Assembly: GCA_949751835.1 (NCBI GenBank) | Contig: CATKHK010000080.1 | Location: 145,148-209,147 of the forward strand | Origin: Blepharisma japonicum | Taxonomy: Eukaryota; Ciliophora; Heterotrichea; Heterotrichida; Blepharismidae | DNA length: 64,000 nucleotides | Direction: 5' to 3' | Part shown: positions 3,460 to 63,747 of the stretch, piece after piece | Position numbering within the stretch: the first letter of the stretch is position 1 | How the letters are laid out: each line of letters begins with the position of its first letter | Translations under genes and position numbers: made by a program | The notes under the pieces: model-generated | Told to the model about the DNA's origin: nothing | The model's input: the letters and a program-made list of their open reading frames with translations, nothing else | The model's database searches: none

Positions 3460-4096
3460 GACTAAATCTAATTTAATTTCTTAAATAAATAAAATTATTT
3501 TGGTGATTAGGAATCGGAAACTATAGAAATATGCTGAAAAACAAGGTCCATTGAATTGGAAGTTGTTAAATATATATAAGTATTATACACTTTTTGAATT
3601 TAATTTAAAATGTCATACTCTCGGTGGTGTATGGTGCACGCCTGTAAGGGAAATTCAGGAGGTGGAAGTTCGAGTCTTCCTCGAGAGACTTTTTATAAGG
3701 CATTAGTTGTAAAGCTGCAGTAAGCTGTCTAGCTAAAAACTAGGAATAATCCAACTTATTATTCCCAAACTGAAAAAAATTTCAAATTTTTTCAAAAATG
3801 TCATTTCTATTTTATTTAGATAATTAATAATTTTTACGAAAATTATAACTTTTTTCATATGAATGACAGTGGAAATTTGCGTCTTTGGAAATTTAAAACA
3901 TTATATAAATCAGCAGTTTTTTCTAATTATCTTAATTCTCAAAATATTTGTATATCTTTTAGATTAATGTTACTCTAGATTATATATGAAATTAAAGCAT
4001 ATCTTTAATGAAAATTAACGATTTAAGTCCATGAATTCTTATAATTTTAATTCTTCTTTGGGTTTTATATTAGCATAATTAAAAATTATAAATTTT
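3460..4096. other. Intergenic region with Pol III-like gene and hairpin
   Basis: AT-rich, no supported protein gene. It holds the tRNA-like gene at 3618-3688. Downstream there is a perfect 8-bp hairpin, GGAATAAT...ATTATTCC (about 3743-3765), which might belong to a longer transcript or be unrelated. Confidence 0.6.
3618..3688 (+). ncRNA. tRNA-like Pol III gene with abnormal anticodon arm
   Basis: About 71 bases fold as a cloverleaf: acceptor CTCTCGG/TCGAGAG (7 pairs, one G-T), D-like arm GTGT-ATGGT-GCAC, and a perfect T arm GGAAG-TTCGAGT-CTTCC. A run of five T follows at 3690-3694, as expected for a Pol III terminator. The middle arm is odd: only CCTG/CAGG pairs and the loop is 11 bases (TAAGGGAAATT), so no normal anticodon with U33 can be assigned. 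The stretch GGTGCACGCCTGTAA also resembles the Alu domain of SRP RNA, so a 7SL-like RNA is an alternative. It could also be a decayed tRNA. Confidence 0.45.
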
Positions 4097-8666: not shown

Positions 8667-8747
8667 GACAGTATGGCCGAGTGGTTAAGGCGACAGACTT
8701 GAAATCTGTTGGGATCTCCCGCGCAGGTTCGAATCCTGCTACTGTCG
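8667..8747 (+). tRNA. tRNA-Ser (anticodon UGA)
   Basis: Acceptor GACAGTA pairs with TACTGTC. The anticodon arm is ACAGA-CTTGAAA-TCTGT, giving anticodon TGA (reads UCA/UCN). A long variable arm (GGGATCTCCC) marks a type II tRNA, as expected for Ser. T arm GCAGG-TTCGAAT-CCTGC is perfect. Six T residues follow directly (8748-8753). No intron. It decodes Ser codons and is not the tRNA for the reassigned UGA codon, which would need a UCA anticodon or a modified tRNA-Trp. Confidence 0.97.
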
Positions 8748-23276: not shown

Positions 23277-24740
23277 ATGGGAAACTGCAGCAACAGCGCA
23301 AAACCTGATATTCCTCAATCAGAAATTTCATACTCAGAAATAGCAATGCTAAAAATCAAAGAGCGTGACTATTCAGGACAAGTCATCAACCACGACAAAA
23401 TAAAATTCAAATTGACATCTCCATGTCTCAACCAAACTGCCAAGTTCTTGCACATGCCTTATGCCTTCGACATCACAGGAACAGTTCTCCCTGGGCTAGA
23501 CCCTAGAGAACTTGTCGATAAGGAATGCCAAGACAATCTCTTCTTTGTGGAGAAAGAAAATACCCTCTTCGCTGCACTTTTTGACGGGCATGGCCAAGAT
23601 GGGTTTAAAGTCACTGAATATTGCAAGAGGTTCATGAATCGACAATTTAAAGAAAAATTCGAAGATTTTAAAGTAAAGCCTAAAGATGCAATCAGAAAAA
23701 TAATTGAGGAATGCGATGCGTCACTCAAAGCAAATGCTGGGGACATAAATTATTTAATATCAGGGACCACTGCTGTAGTCCTGTTTATAGATGGAAATAG
23801 CATGTATGTAGGTAGTGTGGGCGACTCTAGAGCTATTTTGGGGACTATTCCAAAGTCTGATGATGAAGTGTCAAAAATTATAAGAAGCAATAAACCGGTT
23901 CCTTATAAAACAAATATCGAGCCTAGAAGGTTACTGAAATCTATAGCACTCACTGTAGATCAAAAGCCAAACCATCAAGAAGAACTTGAAAGGATTCAAA
24001 AATCAGGCGGAAAAGTCCAACAATTGACAGATGACAGAGGAAATAAAATAGGCCCATTTAGAGTGTGAAAAGGGAACGGAAACATCCCAGGCTTAGCAAT
24101 GTCGAGATCAATAGGTGACGGAATTGCAAAAGACTGTGGAGTTATTTCTACACCCATAGTCCATGATTTTCAGCTATTTCCTGATAGAGACCAATTCATA
24201 GTTTTAGGCTCAGATGGGGTATGAGATGTTTTTGACAACCAAGAAGCTGTGAATTTTGTAGAGAAATACCGCTCAGAGTGTGTGAAAGCACCTGTCAGAG
24301 ACAATGCCTATCCTATTAAAGTAACATATATTTAGCCTGATAACTCAACTATATCTCAATTGTTAGGTGAAGAGGCAAGATATAGATGGTTTGGAGTCTG
24401 CGAAGACGAAGATGTGATGATTGATGATATATCTGTAATTGTCATTGAAATAAGCTCTTTAGTCCCTATGTCGGTTATTGATACGAGTGAAACTGAGGAT
24501 AGGAGAACTGTGAGGCTTAATAGTTTGGGAGATATTCAAGACTCGAAGCCCATGGTCTCAAATATGCTGAGAGGAGATGCTGTAAGAGGAAGCTTTATAC
24601 CTGCAAAGGACCCTAATGCAAAACGAATAAGAATTGACCCGAAAAGAGGATCACATGCTGTTGTAGGGGGAGAAGATGCGGAGGAAACTGAAGCTGTCAT
24701 CGATGTGCCATTTGTCGATGAAGAGCATAAACTTGATTAG
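23277..24740 (+). CDS. PP2C-type Ser/Thr phosphatase, N-myristoylated
   Basis: 482 residues after splicing one 15-base intron (24321-24335); TGA=Trp at 24066-24068 and 24222-24224. MGNCSNSA fits N-myristoylation. PPM motifs are in order: DNLFFVE, ALFDGHGQDG, SGTTAVVLF, GSVGDSRAIL, LTVDQKP, LAMSRSIGDG, LGSDGVWDV and the last Asp in the DDISVIVIEI strand. Metal-binding Asp and Gly residues are present, so it should be active and Mg/Mn-dependent. The C-terminal 110 residues are an extra tail rich in Arg/Asp. Likely opposes membrane-associated kinases. TAG stop. Confidence 0.95.
24321..24335 (+). other. 15-base spliceosomal mini-intron
   Basis: GTAACATATATTTAG. It contains an in-frame TAG, and removal joins DNAYPIK to PDNSTISQLLGEEA, restoring the last part of the PP2C domain. 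Same length and ends as the intron at 2965-2979. Confidence 0.93.
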
Positions 24741-24971
24741 TTTATTAAGTTCAAAAAATTAGTATGCTAAAACATTATGCATTATTACGAATTTTAATTT
24801 GGAAAATTTTAGAACAGAAGCTGAGAGAGTTTGTAAATAATAAAATTATATTTTAGGTAAAGATATCATAAAGTCAATGATTTTGAATTATACTTACACT
24901 CATTTGGCTTAATAGAAATATTTGTTAAAAAAAGCTATTGCGTTAGGAGTTAGGTTTCTTTATAGAAAAGA

Positions 24972-25139
24972 GACCACTGCGCCAGGAGTAGTCTAGAGCA
25001 GGATAGAACTTGCGCCCTAACCTTCAGTAAACGATCAATTCAAAGTTTTGGAAGTAACTCCTTAGCATTGAGTCATCTTTATAATCCCTTTTGATTTAAA
25101 TATCTAAGATGGAACGATAATTTCTTTTATGGGTCAAGG
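24972..25139 (+). repeat. Structured repeat element, copy 1
   Basis: Begins CCACTGCGCCAGGAGT and ends TTATGGGTCAAG. Internal hairpin GCAGG-ATAGAA-CTTGC. The 5' GGAGT can pair with ACTCC at about 25057-25061, and GAGTCAT can pair imperfectly with ATGGGTC at the end. Preceded by a 5' fragment (AGCTATTGCGTTAGGAGT, from about 24933). Orientation is arbitrary. Confidence 0.75.
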
Positions 25140-25440
25140 CTCGAATATTCATAAATATATTTCTTAAAGAAAACTTAATTTAATTTGTTATAAATTAAGC
25201 TTCATTCAAGATAAAATTCTTTTTTGTCATTTCTTTCTTGCTATAGAATCCATAGTTAAATTTTTATATGTAAGATTGGAGTGCAACTTGATCCAAAAAA
25301 GTTATGGAAGCTTATAAGATGCTAGTGAATAACTATTAATTCGCATTTCATTTTTTATAGATTCTAAAATATTAAATGAATCATGCTTTAATTAGATTTT
25401 CGTGATAATAATTTAACTCTAAATTTTGTTGTCAGGAAAA

Positions 25441-25534
25441 AGCTATTGCACCAGGAGTGATCTAAATGCAGACTCACACCTACCTTGATAGAAAAGAATT
25501 TAAAATATTTGAAGTAAGAGATTTTATAAAAAAA
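25441..25534 (+). repeat. 5'-half fragment of structured repeat element
   Basis: Carries AGCTATTGCACCAGGAGT and the section down to CTTGATAGAAAAGAATTT, and ends GAAGTAAGAG just before copy 2. It matches the 5' half of copy 3 best (the part up to TCGATAGAATATTT). The 3' half is missing, so this is a partial copy fused to the next one. Confidence 0.6.
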
Positions 25535-25706
25535 GACTACTGCGCTAGGAGAAATCTAGAGCAGGATAGAACTTGCGCACAATCCTACAGTAGAGTTAAT
25601 AATCAAACGATATGAAGTAACTCCTTAGCATTGAGCCATCTTTATAATTCCTCTTGATTTAAATATCCAAGAGAAATTTATAATTTCTTTTTATGGGTCA
25701 AGACTT
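25535..25706 (+). repeat. Structured repeat element, copy 2
   Basis: GACTACTGCGCTAGGAG at the start, TTATGGGTCAAGACTT at the end. Hairpins: GCAGG-ATAGAA-CTTGC, and CTCTT...AAGAG around GATTTAAATATC. ACTCCTTAGC can pair back with GCTAGGAG. The next 100 bases (ATTCATGAATATATGGTCAA onward) also match the flank of copy 4, and include hairpin TTGAG...CTCAA. Confidence 0.78.
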
Positions 25707-25879
25707 GAAAATTCATGAATATATGGTCAAGTAAAAATTGAGAGTTATCCCTCAACTTCACTTTCTATATCAAAAGTATTTTATATAGAACAATGCATAA
25801 TTTTTAATCTCTACGAGAGAGCAAGCAAAAGATTTTTGTTCACTCTTAAAGGGTTTAGAGTTTACTTTAACAGCGCAGC

Positions 25880-26105
25880 TTGCCGAATGGTTTTACCACT
25901 ATCTTTTCTCCTCCTTTGCTTTCATTCTTAATTCTTTTTTATCGTCTCTTCTTCTTCTTCCTCTTCTTCTCTCGATTTCCATACCCAATTTTACTCCTCT
26001 CATATCCTTCTTAATCTTTGTGTCTCATTTTCCATTTTTCATTTCGTCCTTAATTAATCTTATCCACCCATATCTGCTTCTTTATATTATCTTCTCTCTT
26101 TTTAT
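25880..26105. other. Pyrimidine-rich tract
   Basis: Long run dominated by C and T on the plus strand (many TCTTCTTC units), with a second such stretch at about 26300-26500. Frames across it look like low-complexity translation and no gene is called. Confidence 0.6.
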
Positions 26106-26300
26106 GCCATTTTGTGCTATGTTGAGTGCTAAACTGTGTGCTATTTCGTGTGCTGCATTGTGTACTATATCGTGCGCTATGCCTGTTCTATTTCGAATGC
26201 TATGTCGTACACTATATCAGTTGTAATAAGTGCACTATGCCGTGTGATATTCCATATGCTCTGTCATGCGTCATGCTTTACTGTTCTACGCTGTCATTTT
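26106..26300. repeat. Degenerate 12-base tandem repeat
   Basis: About 15 units of roughly TGCTATNTCGTG (for example TGCTATTTCGTG, TACTATATCGTG, CACTATGCCGTG), mostly 12 bases with occasional 11. As 12 is a multiple of 3, open frames are kept (peptide CAISCAALCTISCAM), but there is no sign of a real gene around it. Confidence 0.75.
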
Positions 26301-26831
26301 TCTCACCACCATCTTTTTCTCACTAATTCTTCCTGCCTTTTCGATTTTATATCCAGTCATTCCTAGAAATTTTGCTAAACTATTTCACAAACTAAAAAAT
26401 ACCCAAATTTTCTTTCTTTCTCCGAGAGCAAATTTCTGGTTTCCCCAATGTTTTTCTCGTGTGGGCCTTCTTCTTCTTCTTCACCTTCCTTAGTTCCCAA
26501 GAGCACCAAACTTATTCTCCAGTGCAATTTTCTAACCCAGGCTAATCTTATGTGATATAATTATTTTTAACTAGATTGACTTGATTCATGTTTAAAACGA
26601 GACAATCAAAATATTAATTTAACTACTTACCAAAATGCTTTAATCATATATAGTTATATTCTTATGAGAGATAAGAATTAGGGTATTAATATTTTATTAA
26701 ATATATTTAAAGTCTTATTAGATTAGAATAAGAGCTAATATATTACAACATCTCTAATATTTCTTTATCAACATAGGTAGTTATTTTTAAAGATAAGAAT
26801 CTATGGGTATCATTTATGCTTGAATAAATAC

Positions 26832-27700
26832 ATAGAAACTAAAAATTAAATAATTCAAATAAAAATAATTTGTTCATAGAAACAGTTCTCTTACTTTTTG
26901 CTGTCTAAATAATACTGATTATTTAATTTCTAAATCTTCAAGATTCGGATTCTTGGAAGAAGAGAAATCCATTATTTAATACATTCATTCAATTATTAAA
27001 GCTTCAAAACAATCTCTATTAAATTAGAAAGGAACCATAAAAAGTAATAAAACAGCTTAAATTTTTATTTATGTTTAGATTATTTTAATCTTCCCTCTTT
27101 ATTTTTTGAAGATCCTACAATATTGTTTAGAGTTGCATAAAATTTGCTAAGATCGAAAGCTTACGATAAGAAAAAAGCCACAGCGCTAGGAGTATTCTAA
27201 GTCATCAGCAAGGTTTGCGCACCCACCTCGATAGAATATTTCGTTTTTATATGAAGTATCTCCTTAGCATAGAGCTATCTTTATTGTTTCTATTTATTTA
27301 AATAGCACTCAAATAATGCCTATGTTTATTATGGGTCAAGGAAGATAAGAAAATAAAGAATAAAATAAAAATTTATCTATGATTAATATTTTAACATATA
27401 GAATTATAACAGTGAAAGCGTGTCTATAGAAAAATATAAATTATCAGCTTGTTTAGTAATCTAGCTACTAGCTTTTAGTAATTTTTAATGCTTATTTGTA
27501 TGCTTCTGGTATATTACTGTGCTCACATATATATATTAATTCTTTTTAATCTTCAGTTAAACACTGCAATGAAGCTAAACTTTTCTTATCATTTATTTGT
27601 TTTTATAAAATATAAGAATAAATATCAAAATTCCCCTACATCTTAAAAATTTATAACGATTGACACATCATATTTTCTTATAAATTAAAGATTATTGAAC
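26832..27700 (+). repeat. Large duplicated block, copy 1 (contains element copy 3)
   Basis: Closely matches 28215-29050, from ACTAAAAATTAAATAATTC through to GATTGACACATCATATTTTC. Both copies hold a structured element in the same place and orientation. Differences are substitutions and small indels. Confidence 0.8.
27177..27340 (+). repeat. Structured repeat element, copy 3
   Basis: GCCACAGCGCTAGGAGT at the start, ATTATGGGTCAAG at the end. Hairpin is GCAA-GGT-TTGC; the second hairpin is CTATTT-ATTT-AAATAG in place of CTCTT/AAGAG, a changed sequence that keeps pairing. CTCCTTAGC pairs back to GCTAGGAG. Confidence 0.78.
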
Positions 27701-27850
27701 TTCTATTACTTATATCTCTTAACCAATAAAATATTAAATGAGTTGTGTTTTAATCAGCAGCTTGTGAAAATAAGTTCAGCTTTAAATTTTGCTAATAACC
27801 TAAAATTGTTCAAAGAGTAATCTAAGTACTAAGAAATTTTATAAAAATAG

Positions 27851-28016
27851 GCCACTGCGCCAAGAGTGTCTAAGAGGATAGAACTCACGCCCAACCCGTC
27901 TGTAGATTCATAAAACAATGAATGAAGTAACTCTTTAGCATTGAGCCATTTTTTATAGTTTCTCTTGATTTAAATATCTAAGAGAAATTGATAAATTCTT
28001 TTTATGGGTCAAAACT
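27851..28016 (+). repeat. Structured repeat element, copy 4
   Basis: GCCACTGCGCCAAGAGT at the start, TTTATGGGTCAAAACT at the end. Hairpin is GAG-GATAGAA-CTC where copies 1 and 2 have GCAGG/CTTGC, so both sides changed together. TCTCTT...AAGAGA hairpin is present. The flank holds TGGGAT-CCAGTC-ATCCCCA at the place of the TTGAG/CTCAA hairpin of copy 2. Confidence 0.78.
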
Positions 28017-28115
28017 TAAAAATTCATGAATATATGGTCAAATAAAAATGGGATCCAGTCATCCCCAATATCACTTTCGTATATCAAAAGTATATTATAT
28101 AGAATAGTATATAAA

Positions 28116-28199
28116 TCTTTAGCATTGAGCCATTTTTATAGTTTCTCTTGATTTAAATATCTAAGAGAAATTGATAAATTCTTTTATGGGTCAAAACTT
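28116..28199 (+). repeat. 3'-half fragment of structured repeat element
   Basis: TCTTTAGCATTGAGCC through TTTATGGGTCAAAACTTAAA, nearly identical to the 3' half of copy 4, about 180 bases downstream of it. A recent local duplication. Confidence 0.75.
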
Positions 28200-28214
28200 A
28201 AAAATTCATGAATA

Positions 28215-29050
28215 TATAAAAACTAAAAATTAAATAATTCAAATAAAAGTAATTTGTTCACTCTTATTTTTTGCTGTCTAAATAATACTGATTATTTAGT
28301 TTCTAAATCTTCAAGGTTCTATTCTTGGAAGAAGAGAAATCCATTATTTAATACATTCATCCAATTATTAAAGCTTCAAAACAATCTCTATTAAATTAGA
28401 AAGGAACCATAAAGCAGCTTAAATTTTTTTAATTACCTTTGGATTATTTTAATTTTCCCTCTTTATTTTTTGAAGATCCTATAATATTGTTTAGAGTTGC
28501 ATAAAATTAGCTAAGATCGAACGTTTACAATAAGAAAACAGCCACAGCGCTAGGAGTATTCTAAGTCATCAGCAAGGCTTGTGAATTTACCTCAATAGAA
28601 TATTTCGTTTTAATATGAAGTATCTTTTTTTGCATAGAACTATCGCTATTGTTTCTTTTATTTAGATAACACTAAAATAATGCCTATTTTATTATGGGTA
28701 AGATAAGAAAAGGAATAAAATAAAAGTTTATCTATGATTAATATTTTAACATTTTAGAATTATAACAGTAAAAACGTATCTCTCGAAAAATATAAATTAT
28801 CAGCTTGTTTAGTAATCTAGCTACTAGCTTTTAGTAACTTTTAATGCTTATTTGCATACTTCTGCTATATCACTGTGCTCATATATATATTAATTCCATT
28901 TTGAATCTTCAGTTAAACACTGCAATGAAGTTAAACCTTTCTAATCATTTATTGTTCTTATTATATTTCTTTAAGGTTTAGGGAATTTTGATTTTTTATT
29001 TTTATATTTTGCGATTGACACATCATATTTTCTTATAAATTAAAGATTAT
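28215..29050 (+). repeat. Large duplicated block, copy 2 (contains element copy 5)
   Basis: Partner of 26832-27700; see that entry. The block ends shortly before the promoter region of the ABCA gene. Confidence 0.8.
28541..28702 (+). repeat. Structured repeat element, copy 5 (partly decayed)
   Basis: GCCACAGCGCTAGGAGT at the start, hairpin GCAAG-G-CTTGT, end ATTATGGGTAAG. The ACTCCTTAGC strand is replaced by ATCTTTTTTTGCAT, so the long-range pairing is lost. Likely a degenerating copy. Confidence 0.72.
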
Positions 29051-29250
29051 TAAATTCTATCATCACCCTCTTAAATAATAAAATTTTTAAAAAATGCTGT
29101 TTTCTTATCTGTATTGCAATCAGTACTGACTTTGAATTTTTGCAAATAAGCCAGTTTTTATATATAAGAAGTTATATTTTTGACATATAAAAATGCAACC
29201 TTAAAGGATCCTTTTCATTTTTAAAGTAAATTGGAAAACGTATATTGGAA

Positions 29251-35508: not shown

Positions 35509-37725
35509 TTAAGATATTCGGTTAGCATTTTTCGAAAAAAATGGGGTTGCATCCGGGTCGAGCTTCGAAGTTTTCTTCTTAGGGCTCTCGGTTGAATCGT
35601 CGTCAGATAAAAGGTCATAAATAAACTTGAGTTGATGGTGGTTTTCAGGTTCCTCTGATGTCGTTTCGATTTCATTCATGGAATTCTTCAACTCCTGATT
35701 GTTTTTTAGGAAAATTGGGGGAAAATTGTGAGCCACGAAAGGCTTTTCTAAATCTAAAGGATTTTCTAATGTAAAATTAAATTCTATTTGCTTGGACTGC
35801 AGATGGTTTAGGTAAAGAAAGTCATCCAAGGATTTGCAATTATAATTATCCCAGTCTATGCTTCCAAACTTAGAAAATAAGTGCTCTTCTAAATGAGTGT
35901 AATCGGAGAATTTAAGTATTTCTGATACTATTTCGTCTATAGCGACTCCATTAATCAAAAGCGCATAAGGCTGATTAGTCCCACTTTGCTCCACTTGCAC
36001 ATTTTTGATTGTCCTCAAAAAGTCTTTTAATTTGGAAAATCCAAACTTAGTTATATCTAAATGCATAGAAAATCTCTTTTTTAAGTGCAAAGGAATCTGG
36101 GCAAGTGGAAGCCCTGCTTTTTCTTCTTTTAAAATTTCTATAATATTTTTTCTGATGTCTTCTAGTTTGGAGTCTATTTTTAAATCTTCAATCTTATTTT
36201 CGACTGTGGATGATAAAACTAATAGAGCTTTTTGGTACCTTATGACATCTTCATCAATAGCTAGCTGCACCATGTAACTCAATTTTCCCAGTGAGCATTC
36301 TTGTAAAAGCTTAGGCCCGAAGAATTTTATTAATTGAGCACATCCATATCTCCCTCCGGGAATTGCAGTGCTGACTTCTGATTTAGTTTTAAAATAACTT
36401 TCACAAAACGCTATTAAAGTATTTCATTCATGTGTGTTTTTCATATTAAGAGGATCTCCTGTACGTATGTATTGGTCGTAAGAAAATCATTGATCTTCTC
36501 TTGGAAAAATTAAAAATGTTGTTGACTCGTTTTGAGGGTCGTCTATTTCGGAAATCAAGTAATTCGGGCTATTTTTGCATTTTTCTAGTAAGTTTCCCCA
36601 TTGAGAATTAGTTGGCTTGAAGTCAAAAGCTTCTTTGATTCTTGATTGCACGGTTCTTTCAATTGGAAGCATTTCATCGATTTTTAAGGATTTAAGCACC
36701 CATTGCACACTTTCCAAGCTTAAACTTTCAAGCTTCAGTCCAATGAAGTCTTTCGGACTCAGGCCTCCAAATTGTTTTCTGCTTAAAAATGAGATTCCTA
36801 AGTTGCAAGTCTGGTTCAACACTTCAGATGATTTTTCATAACTTAGTCCATATTTTATTGAAAAATCATTTATAAACCACTCGAGATCTATCATCATCTG
36901 TCCATGTTTTGCAAAGGACTTCAATCTTTTTGCTACTAAATCATGGTATTGGCTTTGTCCACGTTTTACTGTAAATTGTTGGTGCTCGCTGCAAGATTCC
37001 ATTAAGTCTCCTGTTTTACTAAGTTTTGTTTGATCTGGATTGGAAACTTGGGGATCTTGATAATTAACAATCCTATAAAAGCCAAATGGAATTGGGAGCA
37101 ACTGTATATTTTTTATTTCTAATGGAGAAATGGATTGTGAAAATAGAAGGGTCACGTTTGGTAAATTATTCTGAATTTGTGTCAAATGGGGCTTCATATA
37201 AGCGGCATTCCCACTTAGTATCAAAATATGGGTTAGATATTTTCCAGCAGATAAAGAAAGCTCTAGAATAAATGTTTGTAAGTCTTTAAGCTCGTTCGAC
37301 ACGATCAAGTCAATACCAAATTCATTAAACACACTACTCCATTTTTGGTAACTATCCCCGAAGGCCTTGATTTCTGCTATATTATCATAAAGCGTTCTTA
37401 TATTCTTCAAGACGGTTTCAACATCTTCTTTTTTATTCACTCGACAGGAATGCAAGTCCCAAAACACTGAAACCTTGCTGACGAAGGATAAAGGCTCCAA
37501 GGAATGGTCAGGATGGTTTTTGGTGCAATTTTCGCAAAGAGGGACTTCACAGGTCCAGCATCTTTTTTGGGCTACAGATTTGCAGTGCTTGCATATAAGC
37601 TGTCTGACATGGAGTTTTCGCTTGCCACCTCTATGGATCGATTCAGAGCAATCTTTGCAAAATAACTCATCACATTCTGAACATAGAAGCGTGGCCGTTA
37701 AATGGTTGCACTCCTCACAATGCAT
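35509..37725 (-). CDS. B-box, NYN and LOTUS domain protein (MARF1-like)
   Basis: 738 residues; TGA=Trp at 36487-36489 and 36424-36426. Two B-boxes (CEECNHLTATLLCSEC, CKHCKSVAQKRCWTC, residues 1-80). A NYN ribonuclease-like domain follows (residues 84-215): VSVFWDLHSCRV matches FWDIENC, AFGDSYQKW the second acidic strand, and LILSGNAAYMKP the SGD strand. An unassigned middle region (residues 245-480) precedes an OST-HTH/LOTUS domain at about 520-592 (IRKNIIEILKEEKAGLPLAQ, then YALLINGV). NYN plus LOTUS is the MARF1/limkain-b1 layout, acting in mRNA decay and silencing. The SGD Asp is Asn here, so nuclease activity may be altered. B-boxes in front of NYN are unusual. Confidence 0.87.
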
Positions 37726-47877: not shown

Positions 47878-48235
47878 TGCTAATTAAATAAATTCTACAA
47901 CATTTTTCTCATTTTAAAAATTATTGTAATGTATCTCATTTCTATATTGATCGATAAAATTTATAAATAGAAAATTTCTTATGACTGTCGGCATATTTAT
48001 AAATCTTCGATTGATATATTCTGCCATACTTTGAAAACATAAATTTAATTAATCCTATTTAATAATCATTTCACGTACCGAAAATTTTACATACGAAGAG
48101 ATAAATTGGCTATAGAGCTCATTATAATTATAAGAAGCTGCTATTTCTGATTATTTCGTTAATACTGAAAGCATATGAACTTGGCATTTTATCTTAATAT
48201 TTTCTATTTTAGAAATTGATAAATGAGAAGCCTAT
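47878..48235. other. Spacer downstream of giant gene A
   Basis: About 48060-48235 matches the 3' flank of gene B (56285-56439), including CATAGAGCTCATTATA-like and GATAAATGAGAAGCC sequences, so the duplication took the 3' flank along. No gene seen. Confidence 0.6.
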
Positions 48236-51200
48236 TTATGAATATTTAAGCATATCTTTTTTCTTTGCTAATACTTCCTGCCTCTTCAACCCTTTCTTTC
48301 TTTTATTAAGCATCTCTTGTCTCCACTTGAAGTTCCATTTCTCTCTCAGTTTGATTTCAATTTTCTTGTTTTTTGGAATAATAACATTTTTCCATATATT
48401 CAGCCGCTTAATTGATGCCTCAACTTCTTGAATTGATTTTTCTATTATATCGACTGAGTCTAAATCTGGTGAAGTTATGAAATCTTTGATATTGCAAAAA
48501 ACTGATAAAAGCCAATTCATTTGCTTTAGCAAATAATGGAAATCCAGTGGCTTTTTTAAAGTTTCTTTATAAATGCATTCGTTGATTTCTGTTTGATATT
48601 TTTCGATGAGAGAGATAATGAGTAAATAATTTTTTGATTTTTCCCAATCTGTTTTAAGCGCTTTGATATCTTTAACTTTAGAAGATAGGGATGAAAATAA
48701 AACTAGCTGTGAAACAGTAGGATTTTGAAGTTTTTTTCTGTGTGTTTTTAGTTTTCTTAATTTATAGACTTGCTCATGATGTATCGCAAAAAGCTTCATT
48801 TCAGAAATCCAAGATGTATTATGTTTTATCAAGCTTTCTTCTTCACTTATCATATCTTGATGAGTGACAAGAATTTCACCATCTTTTGGAGGTAATGCCA
48901 GATTAATTGCTTGATATTCTTCAAGAACTTCAAAATTGGCTATTTGCATTATTTCATGAATTTCACTGGTTATTCCTATTAGTTCGAATTCTCTATTTAA
49001 TTGCATTTTCATCATTGATTCAAATAAATTACTTGGAGACCCATAGCGAATGATTATTGGCAAAAATTCATATATCCTTCAGGCAAATTTTAATTTTGAT
49101 TTTGATTTTGAGACTATGACAGATTTATTAATTTCACTTAGAGTTTTTACTGTCCATTCAAAAAGCTCAGCAGCAATTGAAGATCTTTTTCCCTTACTAA
49201 TGCCCTTAAATATTGCTTCATTTCGGTTCATTTTTGTATTTTTGGGGAAATACTTATAATGGACTTTAGATAATTTTACAGGCTTACACAAAGAAATAGC
49301 CCAACAGACCACAGCTTTTTCAATTAGATTAATGACTTGCTTAATTTCCATTTCAAAGAATTGAGCATGGAATAAAGATAAAATTGATGTAGAAATATCT
49401 TCAAAGGCTCCTTGTTCGAAATAGAAGTCAATATCCAAATAAGCGAAAGCATACTGATAAAATGAATGACTTTTAAACACTTTTTCATTCGAAGATGATA
49501 TGATTGGCTTAACTCTTTGCTTTAGCATCTCATGGAAATAGCAAGAGTATCCTAAGAGTTTGCAGAGCTGATATGAATTAAGTAGTTTTTCTACAATCTC
49601 AGCTGAATCATGAGTTTTTTCTGATAAGTTCATCAATAATTGTGCATGTCAAAGCAGCGCATGTTTCGCTATCTTTGTTATCTTGATCTCATCTTCAGGA
49701 ATAGATCAACATTTTTCTATAATTAAATTCATCATACTATCTTTATTTTCTGTGGAGTTTTCTTTATGCTTTTTAATCTCTTTTTCTAGGAATGCTATTT
49801 CTTTTTTATTTTGCTCTTTTATAAAATCTCGTGATATTCTGTATCCTTCTGCAAGACTAAGAATTTTTTCTAAACCATTCAGCTGATATTTCAATTCCGA
49901 TGAAAAGTTTTTTTCAAGCTTGTAAGGGTTACCATTAATATGGGAGTTAATGAAGTCAATCATCCAGCGCTCTCCATAATTATTTGATAATGTGCAAACT
50001 GTAGCAGGAAGAATGAAATTTCTTAATCATTCTATAGAAGTGAGTGAGCTAACAATTTCTTTAGAAAACACATTCACAATATTTTTTATTGGGAGAATTA
50101 AAAATTGCCCTTCAATGTCGGCAACATATACTTTTTCAATATCTGGAAGTTTCATAGATTTCAGCAAAATATTGGTTTTATGAAGCAGTACATGTGATAA
50201 ATGAGGAAGCACCATTGTCACTGGCGCTGAAATTAACTGGCGAATCCCAAGTGGAGCCAATAATGCAAAAATCAGGGTTGAGTAATGGGTATTAAGATTT
50301 CGATTATTTACGCATAGCAATTTTACAACCATACTCGATATAAGCAAAATTTCTTCAAAGTCTTCATATGATAAATTTTGTAAGAAAGATTTTAAAGAAG
50401 GTTGATATCTAGTTCCAATCAATAATTGAGTAAAAAATGATAGAGCATCCCAAGCTCTTAATTCACTCATAACTGTTTTAAAAGTTTTACCTTGAAGCAC
50501 ATCTTTAATTAATCCAATTCTCTGTCTCAAGTAATTTATAAATAAAGACTCATCCTTATTATTTATGAATTTCCACAAAATTTCATTAAACACAAAATAC
50601 TCAGGGAAACTAGGCATTTCTCCCAAAGAAGCTTCAAAGTTAGATCTTTGAGTAACTAAATGGAGTGCATTAAGATTACAAACAACTGAATCTAACGCAA
50701 TTTTCGCAGCTTTCACTTCTTCTTCGTTAGAAGGGGTAACGAAAGGAAGTCAAGAGAAATTTTCTTCATTAATTTTTGCTAAGCCATCAGGATTTTCAAA
50801 TGTTAAATAAATATGTTTGAAATTTTTATAATCCATAAATGAAGATGCCACTGCTAAAGAATTTTCTCTGTCCATCATATAAACAGTTTTCTTCCAGTAT
50901 CCTAATAAAATCAGCCCTCTGAATGATTCAATTCCTAGATTTCTCCCATCAAAAAATCTTTTCAGTGCTAAATATTCAGGGTTAATCATTTCTAGTACAT
51001 TATGAATAGCTGCATAGGCGATAGTTGCTCTTTGTAATTGCGCTTTCATAAAAAATGGCTTTTTTATATGATGTGGCTTTAATATAGAATTATTGGAATA
51101 TTTAAATGCTAGTGACACCACATATCTGCCTAGCCTTCCTTCTAAATGGTATCTATTGCATACAAAAAGACACATTTTATACATCCCGAAGTCCTCTAAA

Positions 51201-54200
51201 GTATCCAATATAATTCCTAATAGTTCAGGAGAAATTTCATCAAGGTCAACTAAGGATGCCAATTCTCATGACTCAGCGATTTCTTGAGTACTTACAAGAG
51301 ATTCTGCTGATTTGAAAGCTTTTAGGAACGAAGACACATCAGTAGAAAACATGCCGACATATTCAATTATTTTTCGCATAGCTTGGTCTTCAATGAAAAT
51401 ATCAGTTTTGGTGTTAATAAGTTTTCCACCTTGATTGAGAGCTGCAGCATGGACATTGTCGATAATCGAATAGTCAGAGAGGACAGTGCCTTCTTTATTG
51501 ATGGTCGAACCTAAAGAGTCTATAACAGAGCCTGAGTCCGATTGAAGCCATTCGTCCTCAGGGTCGATGTCTTGCAAAACTTCATATATTTGGTCATCAT
51601 CTTTTATTATACTGAAACTGTCAGCTGATGAGTTTTCTAGCAAAGTGAAGGATGAATTGGATTCTTGAATTAATGAAAAAGACTCTTCTGGCTGTGGTGA
51701 TTTTAATGAAGACTCTTCTTTTTCTTCTTCTTCTTTTTCTTCTTCGCTTTCTTCTTTTTCTTTTTCTTCTTCACTTTCTTCTGCCTTTTCTTGTTCTTCA
51801 GGAATAATATTTTTATCTTCTTGAACTATTCTATTTATATATTGTGTGTCCTTATCCACAGTTGGCAGAATCTTTGGAATCAACGCTTCTAGAGCTATAG
51901 GGACATATTTTTTAATAAATTTCTTTCTTTCTTCATCTGTCATGCAATCTCTACACTTATATATGCAATGCACCAATTTATCTCATTTTCTGCCGCACCT
52001 ATAAGCATCTATAGCTCTAATATATTCAAATTTTTCAGCAAATATATTTCCTGCAGGCTCGTAACGTCCACAAGCTAAATATGCTTCTGCAGCCTGATTA
52101 TTGAGCCCGATGCTTTGGTAAATATCAGCTGCCTTTTCATTTTCTTTTGCTGAAGCAAAACACCTTGCAGCCTCCTTTAGCATAATTTTCCTCTCATTTT
52201 CCTCAATTTCAGAAAGGCTTAAAAAGTCATTCCCTGCTGAAATAAAATCATTTCTTGCTTTTTCTAGCATTTCACTTTTTTGATTCTTTCAATTTCTGCT
52301 GCTAGTGTTTCTTGCCTTTTTTCCTTCTGCAACAATAAGAAGCTCAGAGGCCTGAGTAGCTTTAAGATAAGCCAAAGCTTTTTGCTCTAATATAATATTG
52401 TCAGCTGCCCTAAAACACTTAACAGCTTGCTCATAGAACTTGTGGGACATCATTCTAAGTCCTTGCTCTGTTCATTCTTCTTTAGTAGAGGATTTTGCAA
52501 AGGTTTGGAATATGGAGCCTTGTAGCTCTTCAGAAGTTTGGAATGAAGAAGAGCCTATTTTCTGCCAGAAACTTTGCATTTTTTCTCTTGTTTCAGGCTG
52601 GTCATCATATACAATCAATCTGACTTTTGATCTCGTGATGGCTACATAAAGCTGTTTTAGTTCAGTACATAATAGTGAGTATTTTTTTATATTTATAGCC
52701 TTGCTACATGATAACTTAAGGGTTTGGTTTTCTAGATCTTCTAAACTGCTTGGCTTATAATTTGGGTCATCTTGAATTTTTCCAATATAATCCAAAGCTT
52801 TTCAATTTTTTATTGGCATTTCAGAGTCTGTAAAGAAATTATAGAGGATGACATCATCAAACTCTAAACCTTTGGCTTCATAAACAGTCAAGCAAAGAGC
52901 TGATTTTAGTAACCTGTGAAGCTTCAATTTGGATTCTTGGTTTCTTACAATAATTACTTGGTTGCAGCCAAATTGAATATTTGAAGCTTGAGAGTTTTCA
53001 TTGTTGGAAGATAAAAGGTCCAATAAATCTTCTGGGCTATTACTATTGATAATAATAGGATGAGGACCATTTTTTAAGCTTTTTTCTTTTCCCATTTTGT
53101 CTATAGTGGCTGGGAATAAGGTTTCTAGTAGCGCCACAACTGAATTGGAAAGTTCTAGGATTTGATTATTAGACCTGAAATTTATAGTAAGTTGTACCAC
53201 TTTAGGAGCAAGTATAGAAGACTCATAATACAAGGTTTTTAAGTCACAAAACCTGAAGCCAACACCTTTGGCTATTGTTTGTGCAGTGTCTCCTGAGAAG
53301 AATAATTTTTGGCCTGTAACCTGAAGCAGCAAAGTCAGCGTGGCAGATGTTAAATCTTGGACTTCATCAACCATCATATAGTGGATTGGAATTCCTTTAT
53401 ACCCATGGTAATGAATTTCGCACAAAATGTAATTCACTAAGTCCTGAAAATCATAGCCGCGAACGCTTCTTTTCCACTCCTCATAAGCAAGGAAAGCTTT
53501 GTAAATTTCTATTTTTTCCTCTTGTGATAACATTGATGATTTTTTACTTAAAAGAAGATATTCATCTTTTGTGAGGTAAAAGCCTCTAGATAAGTATGAC
53601 TGTGGGCTACCTTTTATATAAGCTGAAATTTCTGTCCACAAAACCAAAGGTGAAAATTTATCACGGCATGGTAAATTTGGCCAAAATTTTTCAGAAAAAG
53701 CTTTAAAATCAATTTCCCAGCTTCTTATTTGTCTTTGATTATCGCAAGATTTTGGTTCATAAGATTTGCTGCCTTCTTCAACAAGAAGATTTTCATCAAA
53801 ATCTGAGACGTCGCTTATAGATTGAGACTGCTCCCTTCTTTTCTTCTTATAGGCTTTTCCGATTTCGAGAGTGCCCATCAGTTCATTATGCCACTCAAAA
53901 TTTGAAGAAGACCCAATTACTCTTCCAAATTTGTCCCTCGTGAAAAATGGTCTTTCTAAGCTTCCATCAATCATTAAAACAAATTTCCTAATAGTTGCAA
54001 ATAACGGAAAATCTTCGTCTGTAAGCAATTTCATAGAATGAGGGCCCGAATTTATCTCTTCTTCCATTTCTTCAGCTTGTGAAAGCTCAGAGACTTGCCT
54101 TTCTAGCTTGATTTCTTCTATTATTTTTTCTTTCTTAAAGCCTTGCCTTGCTGCTTTCTCTTTGGCTTTTAGACCATCTTTGATTAATTTATTGAGTTTT

Positions 54201-55495
54201 TTATAATAATTCTTGACCTCATTTGTGAGAACTGGAGATGCAGTGACAAAAATAAAGTGTAGAGAAGAAGGCTTATCTACATCTTTTGCTATCAGTTTTC
54301 TCTTATTTTTTAGCATTTTATATCTAAAAAGAATTTCAGCTGAAAACATGCGTAGCAATGAGCAAGTGGTTTTTCCTGTTCCTGATCTTCCTATAGCAAG
54401 AACATTTCCTGGAGTGCTGATAAGCTCCAGCTCTTCTTCTGTGAGTCTCAAAGCCAAATTGGGAAGAGTTTTGAGAAGTCTGATGAAATCTTTGCAGCTA
54501 TTTTCTTCACTTAGCTGTTTAACTAAGTTATTTTTAAAATTTTCATTTCTTTCTCGATTCTCCAAAATAGCTCGGTCTTTTCATACCCACCTTTCAATAC
54601 TAGCATCAAATTTTATACTTTTTGACTCTTTTTGAGTTAAAAATGATTGTGGGATAATTAAGGGATATCTTTTGTCCGCAACATGTTTTAATTGCCTAGA
54701 AACATCTAAGTCTCCAATCCATTCAGGATATTCAATCCATTTATCAGGATCGTCTCTGATTTCTTCTGAAAATTTCTCTATCAATTGAAGGGAATTTATA
54801 GAGTTTTCAGAGATTTCAATTAGTTTGATATAGTGTTCATATGAATACTCAATGACTTTACCATCTTTGACAATCGGAATTCTCTCAATCAAGCATCCGC
54901 CAACTCCGTACCAGTAGTTGTCATCATAACGCCAATAATTCTCATCATGAAACGGAAATGAAAAAAACACCATTCCAATGCAAGGGCCATATTTCACGAC
55001 TCGGCAATTATAGTCATCTAATATGTAACCAAGACTGAATTCGATCATTTTCTTTAACAGCAATATTTTGACGTTTTTATGGCAATCCTTGAATTTTAAT
55101 AAAGCTCTTTCAGAAAAACGGAATCTCCAAGGAATCTGGTTAATATCTTCAAAGATATCACGAGATTTTCAGAAATCAGCTCTCATTATCAAGCTTGTTA
55201 TGTTTTTTGGTTCCCAGTTTGGAATTTTACCTGCAAAGCGGTCTTTTTCGTATTTTTCGATCTCATATTTCAGATAAATTGCCAAAATTTCCAAAGGATC
55301 ATCCATAATTTCTCTGTAATTGATTGGCATGTATGAGCTAAACTCATGGTACATCTGCCATAAGTTGTTAATCATCTTGCTATAAATTTCTTCAACAAGA
55401 TCTGCAATGATGCCTTTAAGATTAAAACAAGCCATAGTATCTTGGCCAAGAGCTGTATTACTTTGCTTCTTCTTGGATTTTTTAGAGGCCTCCAT
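48236..55495 (-). CDS. Giant SF1 helicase/TPR protein (TRANK1-type), copy A
   Basis: 2,419 residues in one frame with at least ten TGA=Trp codons and a TAA stop (48236-48238). After a 300-residue N-terminal region (YNCRVVKYGPCIGMVFF) comes a UvrD/Rep-like helicase core: Walker A GRSGTGKTTCSLLRMF, Walker B VDEVQDLTSATL, SGDTAQTIAKGVGF, TINFRSNNQILEL, YEAKGLEFDDVILYNFF and YVAITRSKVRLIVYD. TPR-like helices follow (AARCFASAKENEKAADIYQS, NQAAEAYLACGRYEPAGNIF), then an acidic Glu/Ser tract and 1,000 residues of mostly helical unknown sequence. Motif order and the long gap between Walker A and B fit TRANK1-like proteins of animals, fungi and ciliates. The biological role is unknown. Confidence 0.9.
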
Positions 55496-56439
55496 AATAG
55501 TTTATACCGGCACCTATTTAATTCCAAAAATATGGAAATGAGTTATTATGGGGCTATGTTTATCTTGGCACAAAAAAGTTAAATTTCCAAAACTTTTATT
55601 AAAATTACAAAGAAAATTTCACAAAAATAATGGCAAAACAAATTAAATTTCATAAAGTATATTCTTGCTAGTACAAATATTTATAATTGCATTGGTATGG
55701 CAAAAATTATAAAAGAGATGCTTAGTGTAAATATATATACAGAATCCATTATCTTTTATAAAATATAAAACACTTAAAAAGTAGAAAAAAATTGTTAATA
55801 TGCAAAATTCATGTACATGAGTCTCAAGATTTGATATTAATATATTAACAAGTTTTTTTTCTGTTTTTAAATGAATTTTAAAATAATATTAATTTTCCTT
55901 TCCAATATTGCAAATTGGGGTTTTTGTAAAATTTGCTAAAAAATTATATTAAAAAAATCAAAAAATATTGCATTTTATGATATCTTTAAAATTCTAGAAA
56001 TTATATTTGCATAATAGCTCTTTTATAAATTTTAGCACAAAGCTTATTATTTAATATTTCGCCAAAACTATCTCTTCTATCATGTATATAGATAATAATA
56101 TTCTTAATTTAGCACATAGTTTTATATAGAGATTTCCCCTGAGGCGCTACTCAGGGAAATCCCTATAAGTTTATATTAAATTTTAATTGAATTTTTTTAC
56201 AGACAAAAGTTTGATTTCTGACAATATTTTAATTAAATTTACGAAAGTTAGATAAGACTATGACAAATTTTCTAAAAAAAATTTAATTAATCCTACTTAA
56301 AAATCATCACAGGTGAAAAAAGTTGCTTATGAAGAGGTAAATTTGCCATAGAGCTCATTATAGTTATTAGAAGTATTTCTTATACTAGTATTATATCTTA
56401 TTATTTTCTAATTTAGAAACTGATAAATGAGAAGCCTAT
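55496..56439. other. Spacer between the two giant genes
   Basis: 944 AT-rich bases. The first 20 or so (AGTTTATACCGGCACCTATT) match the region upstream of gene B, and about 56285-56439 matches the 3' flank of gene A. The middle is not shared and holds the strong hairpin at 56125-56167. Confidence 0.6.
56125..56167. repeat. Near-perfect GC-rich hairpin
   Basis: Left arm TATAGAGATTTCCCCTGAG and right arm CTCAGGGAAATCCCTATA pair over about 18 bp with one mismatch and one bulge; the loop is about six bases (GCGCTA). It is far more GC-rich than the surrounding 900 bases. Confidence 0.75.
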
Positions 56440-59400
56440 TTATGAATATTTAAGCATATCCTTTTTCTTTGCTAATGCTTCCTGTCTCTTCAACCCTTTC
56501 TTTCTTTTATTAAGCATTTCTTGTCTCCACTTGAAGTTCCATTTCTTCTGCAGTTTGATTTCAATTTCCTTGTTTTTTGGAATAATTACATTTTTCCATA
56601 TATTCAGCCGTTTAATTGATGCCTCAACTTCTTGAAGTGATTTTTCTATTATATCAACTGAGTCTAAATCCGGCGAAGTTATAAAAGTGTTAATATTGCA
56701 AAAAACTGATAAAAGCCAATTCATTTGCTTTAACAAATAATGGAAATCCAGTGGCTTTTTCAAGCTTTCTTTATAAATGCATTCGTTGATTTCTGTTTGG
56801 AATTTTTCAATGATAGAGATAATGATTGAATAATTTTTTGATTTTTCCCAGTCTGTTTTTAGTGCTTGGATATCCTTAACTCTAGAAGATAGGGATGAAA
56901 ATAAAACTAGCTGTGAAACACTAAGATTTTTTAGTCTTTTTCTGTGTGTTTTTAAGTGTTTTCTTAATTTATAGACTTGCTCATGGTGTATCGCAAAAAG
57001 CTTCACTTCAGAAATCCAAAATGCATTATGTTTTATCAAGCTTTCTTCTTCACTTATCATATCTTGATGAGTGACAAGAATTTCACCATCTTTTGGAGGT
57101 AAAGTCAGATTAATTGCTTGATATTCTTCAAGAACTTCAAAATTGACTATTTGCACTATTTCTTGAATTTCACTGGTTATTCCAATTAGTTCGAATTCTC
57201 TATTTAATTGCATTTTCATCATTGATTCAAATAAATTACTTGGAGACCCATAACGAATGAGAATTGGTAAAAATTCATAAATCCTTGAGGTTAATTTTGA
57301 TTTTGATTTTGGGTTCGTGTCAGATTTATTAATTTCGCTTAGAGTTTTTACTGTCCATTCAAAAAGCTCAGCAGCAATCGAAGATATTTTTCCCTTACTA
57401 ATACCCTTAAATATGGCTTCATTTTTCTTCACTTCTTTATTTTTGGGGAAATATTTATCATGGGTTTTAGATAATTTTACAGGTTTACCCAAAGAAATAG
57501 CCCAACAGACAACAGCTTTTTCAATTAGTTTAATGACTTGCCCTATTTCCATTTCAAAGAATTGGGCATGCAATAAAGATAAAACTGATGTCGAAATATC
57601 TTCAAAGGCGCCTTGTTCGAAATAGAAGTCAATATCCAAATACGCGAGAGCATATTGATAAAATGAATGACTTTTAAATACTTTTTCATTCGAAGAGGAT
57701 ATGATTGGCTTCACTCTGTGTTTTAGCATCTCATGAAAATAGCAAGAATATCCTGAGAGTTTGCAGAGCTGATATGAATTCAGCAGTGCTTCTACAATTT
57801 CAGCTGATTCATGAGATTTTCCTGATAAGTCCATCATAATTTGTGCTTGGCAAAGTAGCGCATGCTTTGCTATCTTTGTTATCTTGATCTCACCATTAGA
57901 AATAGATGAGAATTTTTCTATAATTAAATTCAGCATACTATCTTTATTTTCCATAGAGTTTTCTTTATATTTATGGATCTCTTTTTCTAAGAAAGCTATT
58001 TCTTTTTTGTTTTGCTCTTTTATAAAATCCAATGATCTTCTGTCTCCTTCAGCAAGACTAAGGATTTTTTCTAGTCTTTTCTTATGTTTTGTGTGCTCTT
58101 TATACTCATTAGACTCTTTTAAAAAAGTTGATGATAAACTTTCAAGTTTATAAGGGTTCCCATTAATATGTGAATTAATAAAGTCAATCATCCACAGCTC
58201 TCCATATCTATTTGATAGTGTACAAACTGTCCCAGGCTGCGACTTAGAATGAATATTTCTAACTTTTATTATAGAAATAAGCGAGCTAACAATTTCTTTA
58301 GAAAATATATTCACTATATTTTTTATTGGGAGAATTAAAAATTGCCCTTCAATGTCGACAACATATACTTTTTCAATATCTGAAAGATTCATAGATTTCA
58401 GCAAAATATTGCTTTTATGAAGCAATGCGTGTGATAAGTGAGAAAGCACCATCGTCACTGGCGCTGAAATTAACTGGCGAATCCCAAGTGGAGCTAGTAA
58501 TGCAAAAATCAGGGTTGAGTAATGGGGATCAAGAATTTGATAATTTGAGCACAACAATTTTACAACCATACTCGATATAAGCAAAATTTCTTCAAAATCT
58601 TCATATGATAATTTTTGTAAGAAAGATTTTAAAGAAGGCTGATAGATAGATCCGATCAATAATTGAGTAAAAAATGACAGAACATCCCAGGCTCTCAACT
58701 CACTCATAGTGGTTTTAAAAGCTTTACCTTGAAGCACATCTTTAATCAATCCAATGCTCTGTCTCAAGTAATTCATGAATAAAGACTCATCCTTTTTATT
58801 TATGAATTTCCACAAAATTTCATTAAACACAAAATACTCAGGGAATATAGGCATTTCCCCTAAAGACGCGGCAGAATTAGATTTTTGAGTAACTAAATGG
58901 AGTGCATTAAGATTACAAACGACTGAATCTAAAGCAATTTTTGCAGCTTTTACTTCTTCTTCATTAGAAGGAGTAATGAAAGGAAGCCATGAGAAGTTTT
59001 CTTCATTTACTTTTCCCAAGTTATCAGGATTTTCAAATGTTAAATAAATATGTTTGAAATTTTTGTAATCCATAAATGAAGATGTCACTGCTAAAGAATT
59101 TTCTCTATCCATGATATAAACAGTTTTCTTCCAGTATCCTAATAAAATCAGCCCTCTGAATGACTCAATTCCTAGATTTCTCCCATCAAAAAATCTTTTC
59201 AGCGCCAAATATTCAGGGTTAATCATTTCTAGGACATTATGAATAGCTGCATAAGCAATCGCTGCTCTTTGTAATTGCGCTTTCATAAAAAACGGCCTGA
59301 TTATATCATGTGGCTTCAATATAGAATTATTGGAATATTTAAATGCTAGAGACACTACATATCTGCCTAGCCTTCCTTCTAAATGGTATCTATTGCATAC

Positions 59401-62400: not shown

Positions 62401-63747
62401 CTTTGCTGCTCTCTCTTTGGCTTCTAAGCCATCTTTGATTAATTTATTGAGTTTTTTATAATAAATCTTGACCTCATTTGTGAGAACTGGAGATGCAGTG
62501 ACAAAAATAAAATGTAGAGCTGAAGGCTTATCTACATCTTCTGCTCTCAGCTTTTTCTTTTTTAACATTTTATATCTAAAAAGAATTTCAGCTGAAAACA
62601 TGCGTAGCAATGAACAAGTGGTTTTTCCTGTTCCTGATCTTCCTATAACAAGAACATTTCCTGGAGTGCTGATAAGCTCCAACTCTTCTTCTGTGAGCCT
62701 TAAAGCCATATTGGGAAGAGTTTTCAGAAGCCTGACGAAATCTTTGCAGCTATTTTCTTCACTTAGATGTTTTACTAAGTTATTTTTAAAATTTTCATTT
62801 TTTTCTCGATTCTCCAAAATAGCTCTGTCTTTTCATATCCATCTTCCAATACTTGCATCAAATTGTATACTTTCTGACTCTTCTTCAGTCAAAGATGCTT
62901 GTGGGATTATTAATGGATATCATTTTTCTGTAACACTCCTTAATTGCCTAGACATATTCAAATCTCCAATCCATTCAGAATATTCAATCCATTTGTCAGG
63001 ATCGTCTCTGATTTCTTCTGAAAAGTTCTCTATCAATTCAAGAACTCCATCAAAGCCTTCAATGACTTCAATTAATTTGATATAGTGTTCATATGAGTAC
63101 TCAATAACTTTACCATCTTTGACAATAGGAGTTCTCTCAATCAAGCATCCACAAATTCCATGCCATTGTATGGGAATAGAATAAGAATAGTTCACATCAT
63201 AAAATGGAAACGAGAAAAATATCATTCCAATACAAGGGCCATATTTAAGGACTCGGCAATTATAGTCATCTAATATATACCCAAGGCTAAACTCGATCAA
63301 TTTCTTTAGTAATGCTGTTTTAAAGTTTTTATGGCCATCCTTGATTTTTAATAAAGCATTTTCAGAAATTCTGAATCTCCAAGGGATTTGGTTAATATCA
63401 TCGAAGACGTCACGAGATTTTCAGAAATCAGCTCTCATTTTCAATTCTGTAATGTTTTGCTGAGTCCAATTTGGGATTTCTCCTGCAAAGCGGTCTTTTT
63501 CGTATTTCTCGATCTCATACTTAAGATAAGTAGTCCAAATATTGAGAGGATCATCCATAATTTCTTTATAATTGATTGGCATGAATGAACTAAACTCATG
63601 GTACATCTTTCATAAGTTGTTAATCATCTTATTATAGATCTCTTCAACAAGAACTATAATATTTTCTGTAAGTTTATAGCAGACCATAGTATCTTGACCA
63701 AGGACTGAATTATTTTGTTTCTTCTTGAACTTTTTAGAGGCCTCCAT
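56440..63747 (-). CDS. Giant SF1 helicase/TPR protein (TRANK1-type), copy B
   Basis: 2,435 residues, start ATG 63745-63747, TAA stop at 56440-56442. Same order as copy A: N-terminal region, helicase core (GRSGTGKTTCSLLRMF at residues 369-384, DEVQD at about 709-713, SGDTAQTIAKGVGF, TINFRSHNQILEL, YEAKGLEFDDVILYNFF, YVAITRPKVRLIIYD), TPR-like helices, acidic tract and long helical C-terminus. By eye it is nearly identical to copy A over long stretches, least so in the first 100 residues, the linker inside the helicase and the acidic tract. Helicase residues are intact, so an ATPase that moves on nucleic acid is expected. Confidence 0.9.

Follow-up and report, generated by a model that had tools for sequence, protein, structure and literature searches.

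What is encoded by the repeated element between positions 24741 and 29250 of the 64,000-nucleotide stretch of Blepharisma japonicum DNA analysed here (the window)? A preliminary description had noticed five copies with signs of a conserved RNA structure and had stated that no known RNA class fits them. Judged from the sequence, the repeats are a tandem array of five genes for small structured RNAs on the minus strand, accompanied by three remnants, and they belong to an RNA gene family of at least 23 predicted members on nine contigs. The terminal stems P1 and P2 of the RNA covary and the structure is conserved. The family is vault-RNA-like, and its members are more likely than not true vault RNAs.

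An array of five RNA genes on the minus strand

The five copies (c1 to c5) are real and beyond chance. The end sequence CCACTGCGCYAGGAGT was found at seven places in the window when up to three mismatches were allowed (0.11 expected), and TTATGGGTCAAG at five places with up to one mismatch (0.29 expected); neither count was reached in any of 100 shuffles. The two ends are thus shared by the copies as described, but less exactly, the first being exact only at 24974 and the second only at 25127, 25691 and 27329. Moreover, the count of five holds for the full copies, whereas three remnants had been missed. A plus-strand reading of the repeats was rejected because the matches to the Rfam Vault model, the T-runs and the promoter all indicate the minus strand. 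On this strand, a full copy consists of a small nuclear RNA (snRNA)-type upstream element, here called the proximal sequence element (PSE; CTTGACCCATAA or a variant), a gap of 24-25 nt (c1 to c4), the TATA box TATTTAA (TATCTAA in c5), about 26 nt and the RNA. At the opposite end, the shared sequence forms the closing stem of the RNA; the T-run follows, soon after the GGCGC(A/T)GT end in the full copies. The copies c1 to c4 seem intact, and c5, in which the 5' strand of P2 is broken, is probably decaying. The features are as follows (CM, covariance model; all on the minus strand).

about 24929 to 24950, minus strand: remnant, gene 3' end with T-run
24964 to 25076, minus strand: c1 RNA gene, 5' end at about 25076, T-run at about 24964-24970; Vault CM 21.4 bits over the full model; in the 22-gene alignment; PSE present
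25096 to 25102, minus strand: TATA box of c1 (TATTTAA), 26 nt upstream of the c1 start
25127 to 25138, minus strand: PSE of c1, CTTGACCCATAA, the same element as in U6 and U2
about 25435 to 25524, minus strand: remnant that retains the 3' part of a gene, 5' half eroded; 12.1 bits to the family model, not significant
25529 to 25639, minus strand: c2 RNA gene; Vault CM 26.5 bits over the full model; in the 22-gene alignment; T-run and PSE present
25659 to 25665, minus strand: TATA box of c2
25691 to 25702, minus strand: PSE of c2
27170 to 27278, minus strand: c3 RNA gene; Vault CM 26.9 bits over the full model; in the 22-gene alignment; T-run and PSE present
27298 to 27304, minus strand: TATA box of c3
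27329 to 27340, minus strand: PSE of c3
27843 to 27949, minus strand: c4 RNA gene, P2 with a G-C to A-U change; 100.7 bits to the family model, which was built partly from c4; no Vault match at E up to 5
27970 to 27976, minus strand: TATA box of c4
28002 to 28013, minus strand: PSE of c4
about 28116 to 28195, minus strand: remnant of a c4-like gene; PSE, TATA box and first bases kept, rest lost
28534 to 28642, minus strand: c5 RNA gene, probably decaying by its pair counts; fold does not surpass shuffles; not matched by Vault at E up to 5
28662 to 28668, minus strand: altered TATA box of c5 (TATCTAA)
28692 to 28699, minus strand: PSE core of c5 (ACCCATAA)

The units of c3 and c5 have flanks outside the gene in common, as do those of c2 and c4; the array therefore grew by local duplication. 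Between c2 and c3, at about 26110-26270, degenerate repeats of words like GTGCTATTTCGTGTGCT adjoin a pyrimidine-rich tract (seen by eye).

Promoter, TATA box and terminator

The TTATGGGTCAAG end, when reversed, recurs in the U6 gene and in three U2 genes of the same genome at a nearly equal distance, and is therefore an snRNA-type upstream element that belongs to the promoter and not to the RNA. In the U6 gene (92.8 bits), TGTCCCATAA is followed by a 24-nt gap and TATTTAA, with the PSE 61 nt upstream, and the three U2 genes reported carry TCCCATAA or TCCCTTAA 56-57 nt upstream; together, the U6 and U2 elements read TCCC(A/T)TAA at 56-61 nt. In ciliates, the genes for snRNAs and telomerase RNA carry a PSE that closely resembles TGACCCATNAA. 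A type 3 snRNA promoter is used by ciliate telomerase RNAs according to the accessible text of one article (PMC9841428).

Throughout the family, the PSE is present in 22 of 23 genes, 56-60 nt (about 58) upstream, and at least four T residues follow the gene in all 23. A TATA-like box 24-27 nt upstream was found in 20 genes by a strict pattern, and in 22 when CATTTAA and TATCTAA are counted. Among the 14 genes that were found without the promoter pattern, 13 have the PSE and one, the probable pseudogene C30a, lacks it. The PSE core alone (TTGACCCATWA) gave 64 matches versus 53 for the reversed control and is uninformative by itself.

Because the strand had been misread at the outset, two of the pairings then proposed fall in the promoter. 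The supposed hairpin CTCTT/AAGAG flanks the TATA box, upstream of the transcript, and GAGCCAT/ATGGGTC would pair the promoter element with the 5' end of the transcript; all seven of its pairs are present in none of the 22 genes with the element (range 1 to 6).

A family of at least 23 genes

The union of the searches comprises 23 genes, on contigs C2 (three), C30 (two), C37 (seven), C46 (one), C62 (two), C80 (the five in the window) and C144, C186 and C213 (one each). A pattern of promoter letters and spacing matched 25 places (22 for the control), namely nine family genes, one remnant, U6 and 14 others, which may be chance matches. Five of the nine genes were new and lie on other contigs; their starts and ends match those of c1 to c5, and the pattern contains no transcript letters. 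A transcript-only pattern recovered 21 genes (none when reversed), and a pattern for the 5' end recovered 17 (none in the control) and added one gene. The total is uncertain, since the C144 and C186 copies are nearly identical and could be alleles and exact patterns miss diverged copies. The Rfam scans and the alignment described below cover 22 of the 23 genes, c5 and C30a included; the 23rd (L091), found later, stands outside both.

Two tandem members (L061 and L062, C62:240880-241209) have longer apical parts with repeated TGCC-NNAA-GGTT-like hairpins, and a 3' end remnant lies between or after the two genes.

Conserved secondary structure

The RNA is roughly 105 nt long (about 80-130 nt in the family). 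P1, of about 4 bp, closes the ends, and single strands of 4 and 5 nt lead to P2, which consists of 4 bp, a bulged A and 4 bp and carries a variable apical domain. The pairing of GGAGT with ACTCC that had been predicted from the repeats is real and corresponds to P2. In the 22-gene alignment, 95.1% of the 264 cells of P1 and P2 are paired, and sliding the partner columns by 1-3 positions lowers the pairing to 41.3-59.5%. The two stems contain 23 double-change cells versus a shuffle mean of 8.6, and their covariation score is 0.377 versus 0.238; none of 500 shuffles was as high in either respect, in a statistic that ignores kinship among the genes. The number of pairs with double changes (five; 53 of 500 shuffles as high) and the number of further pair types (12; 455 of 500) are unexceptional in this alignment. 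The window copies alone give a weaker signal, with 87.8% paired. In the apical part, a GCC-NNNN-GGC-like hairpin is seen by eye in many dispersed genes, and the window copies have a longer stem. With at least 23 genes, covarying terminal stems and a common promoter and terminator, a conserved RNA structure as opposed to a decayed transposon end is more strongly supported than had been claimed.

Resemblance to vault RNA

The copies were compared with the 4227 families of Rfam, in which the gathering score of Vault (RF00006) is 34 bits. Vault was the sole family that matched the array at E below 1, with 26.9 bits for c3, 26.5 bits for c2 and 21.4 bits for c1, that is, for three of the five copies; second in rank was U6, with E 3. 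Outside the window, Vault was matched by one of the eight genes in 19 loci scanned at E up to 0.5 (C37b, 28.0 bits) and by two of nine further genes (C46, 22.2 bits; C37c, 17.6 bits). All six matches span model positions 1-99 in the orientation of the gene and place the T-run at the end of the model; their alignments put the bulged A and the GCAGU strand on the bulge and the GCUGU strand of the model. The layout of vault RNA is thereby found from end to end: a terminal stem, a bulged second stem, a variable apical part and a U-run. When searched alone against all of Rfam, C37b reached E 1e-4 and c3 E 2.2e-4, values that have to be multiplied by about 23 for the choice of the gene. Thus, the earlier statement that no known class fits does not hold in so far as Vault fits several copies end to end; it holds in so far as the scores stay below the curated cut-off. 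As all scores are below 34 bits, the genes are not assigned to RF00006.

The family and vault RNA have in common the terminal stem, an 8-bp second stem with a bulged A in the same place, the GUUACUUC/AUACUUC strand, the GGCGC strand and the T-run end, as well as a similar length and an organisation in multigene clusters. According to the accessible text of PMC7058938, upstream promoter elements assist vault RNA genes too, in combination with internal boxes. In contrast to known vault RNAs, P1 is shorter here, box B is missing or degenerate, an snRNA PSE serves as the upstream element and the genes number at least 23.

Several other identities were rejected. The U6 match to the array (15.5 bits) covers the promoter and the 5' end, and a U6 gene scoring 92.8 bits is present in this genome. 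Telomerase RNA had been considered because CCCTAAC occurs in the plus strand of c1; CCCTAA occurs in none of the 23 transcripts. Box C (RUGAUGA) of box C/D small nucleolar RNAs (snoRNAs) is likewise present in 0 of 23, with CTGA (box D, CUGA) in five, and one pattern for an Sm-site-like motif, as expected of Sm-class snRNAs, had no match in any of them. The remaining sub-threshold Rfam matches near family genes are short, antisense or off-register, among them shuA_thermo (26.8 bits, E 0.38), which lies downstream in L087, and Afu_294 (E 0.59), which is antisense.

Genes for candidate partner proteins

The genome also encodes candidate protein partners of a vault RNA. Repeats of the major vault protein (MVP) were detected at three loci (12 domain matches over the cut-off); two of the frames are complete (845 and 862 aa) and the third runs off its locus (709 aa), and all have the shoulder and repeat domains. 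The three MVP loci parallel the vaults of Trypanosoma brucei, for which several MVP paralogs and a vault RNA are described in the accessible text of PMC12547018. Moreover, three TROVE proteins are encoded, in frames of 604-614 aa from stop to stop. When one of them was compared with solved structures, two chains named 'TROVE domain-containing protein' were returned. TEP1 of mammals binds vault RNA via its TROVE domain (PMC7916137, accessible text).

Weighing the vault reading against its alternatives

We are inclined to see in the family a ciliate vault-RNA-like RNA that would be bound at its terminal stems by a TROVE protein and carried in vault particles of MVP. A number of results weigh against this interpretation. 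The best Vault score was 28.0 of the 34 bits, so that no gene reached the gathering score, and no window copy reached that of any Rfam family; at the thresholds applied, 16 of the 22 genes gave no Vault match, and the C37c match has an E value of 1.8. A genome-wide Vault search, in which 49 of 2815 candidates were scored, yielded one match (c1, E 0.75), and sub-threshold Vault matches occur in seven of 14 control genomes without vaults. In a first matrix test against the Vault consensus, with blocks that included P1, 444 of 4000 shuffles reached the observed score; a core-only version, in which 2-5 of 4000 did so, carries little weight because it was chosen after the first had failed. The folding energies of single sequences for the most part do not stand out (z between -3.57 and +0.61 in 13 genes). 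Box A-like letters were seen by eye only, in the Vault CM alignments, and a loose, after-the-fact pattern for box B is matched at the expected position in 13 of 23 genes. The U2 genes carry the same PSE, so that the promoter does not prove RNA polymerase III (Pol III) and the T-runs alone favour this enzyme. Finally, no TEP1-type protein was recognised, TEP1_N scoring only 17.1 of 25 bits and outside the TROVE frames, and no NACHT or WD40 domains were reported in the three TROVE frames.

The low Vault scores, the many unreported genes and the matches in control genomes would also suit a ciliate-specific, snRNA-like class that is not homologous to vault RNA, and so would a PSE common to U6 and U2. 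The Vault score would then reflect convergent evolution of a short terminal stem and box A-like letters. The class could include or be akin to the Arisong RNAs of Oxytricha, which Jung et al. reportedly described in 2011 as a multigene family of small RNAs with snRNA-like features. However, several genes align with the whole Vault model on the right strand, with bulge and terminator in register, in a genome with MVP and TROVE genes. The RNA also differs from U6 and U2 in sequence and structure, and the Sm-site pattern is missing from all 23 transcripts. We regard an origin of this kind as less likely.

The TROVE proteins themselves would be in line with a Y RNA-like transcript, made by Pol III and bound by a Ro60-type TROVE protein outside vaults. 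The three proteins, of about 600 aa, have no further domains recognised, except that one passes (28.3 bits) and one just misses (27.1 bits) the cut-off of the Ro60 vWA model (27.7 bits), with neither in the third. In addition, a resemblance between Y RNAs and vault RNAs has been noted, and Y RNAs share with the family a similar size, closure by terminal stems, TROVE binding and transcription by Pol III, the last two of which are predicted here (PMC7916137, accessible text). However, no Y RNA (RF00019) match was obtained in three scans of the family loci at E up to 5, 0.5 and 10, thresholds that are permissive, and none in a genome-wide search that is a weak test, with 50 of 6720 candidates scored. 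A Y RNA-like identity is thus improbable.

A short interspersed nuclear element, a miniature inverted-repeat transposable element or another mobile element with Pol III-like ends would account for the multiple copies, the truncated remnants in the window and the imperfect AT-rich inverted pairs (70-73%) around c3 and c5, but is very improbable, since these pairs use different arms though the copies are duplicates, none of the 16 inverted pairs in the region frames c1, c2 or c4 (pair I2 links the 3' end of c4 to a remnant), 22 of the 23 copies known in 45 Mb have an external promoter, which retroposed copies would lack, the stems covary and local copies share long flanks, like segmental duplications.

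Proposed mechanism and significance

With the vault RNA interpretation, Pol III would make a short RNA that ends at the T-run, like other transcripts of this enzyme. The terminal helices would serve as the handle for a TROVE protein, and the complex would sit in vaults built from the products of the MVP genes. The variable apical part could be a binding site for ligands or other RNAs; any cellular role would likewise be a prediction.

Vault RNA is known from animals and T. brucei (PMC7916137, PMC12547018, accessible text), and the species with tested vault RNAs that are named in the accessible text of PMC7058938 are also animals and T. brucei. No ciliate vault RNA is described in the literature searched, which comprised titles and the openings of abstracts and covered few subscription journals; vault RNAs are merely mentioned in the accessible text of a paper on Tetrahymena snoRNAs (PMC6315972). 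We give an even chance to the wider proposal, in which the genes encode genuine vault RNAs of an extant ciliate lineage, without precedent outside animals and kinetoplastids in the literature searched; vault RNA would then, with those cases, date back to the common ancestor of most or all eukaryotes, and the family would have expanded to at least 23 genes under an snRNA promoter beside three MVP paralogs. If the proposal is true, a third and distant lineage would be added and would reveal the conserved portions of the RNA (P1, the bulged P2 and the UACUUC strand), vaults with different RNA cargo become possible, given at least 23 genes and three MVP paralogs, and the function of vaults and vault RNAs could be studied in large free-living cells. 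Even if the vault interpretation is wrong, what remains is a family of structured RNAs with good support and at least 23 genes.

Genomic setting and further observations

The assembly comprises 45.2 Mb in 224 contigs and is eukaryotic, and the source is inferred to be a Blepharisma-like heterotrich ciliate. In-frame TGA codons occur inside several reading frames of known proteins, and the PP2C gene contains an intron-like stretch of 15 nt (GTAACATATATTTAG) at 24321-24335; in Blepharisma stoltei, UGA encodes tryptophan and introns are 15-16 bp long (PMC9942806, accessible text). The array (24741-29250) is flanked by this PP2C gene and a gene for an ABC transporter, which both have plus-strand orientation (Pfam).

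Elsewhere in the window, a gene on the minus strand at 36487-37725 joins B-box zinc fingers to an NYN nuclease-like domain. Positions 48186-63357 contain a tandem duplication of about 8.2 kb, in which seven 300-nt blocks are 82-96% alike and two frames of 587-588 aa (52802-54565 and 61057-62817) have weak matches to UvrD-like helicase domains. A tRNA-Ser (GGA) at 3618-3689 was called by ARAGORN and not reported by the Rfam tRNA model at its gathering score, and both called a tRNA-Ser at 8667-8747. Finally, locus L059 contains two tRNA genes about 800 bases apart (809-881 and 1610-1682, 62.0 bits each), together with sub-threshold antisense matches to Plastid-ycf2.

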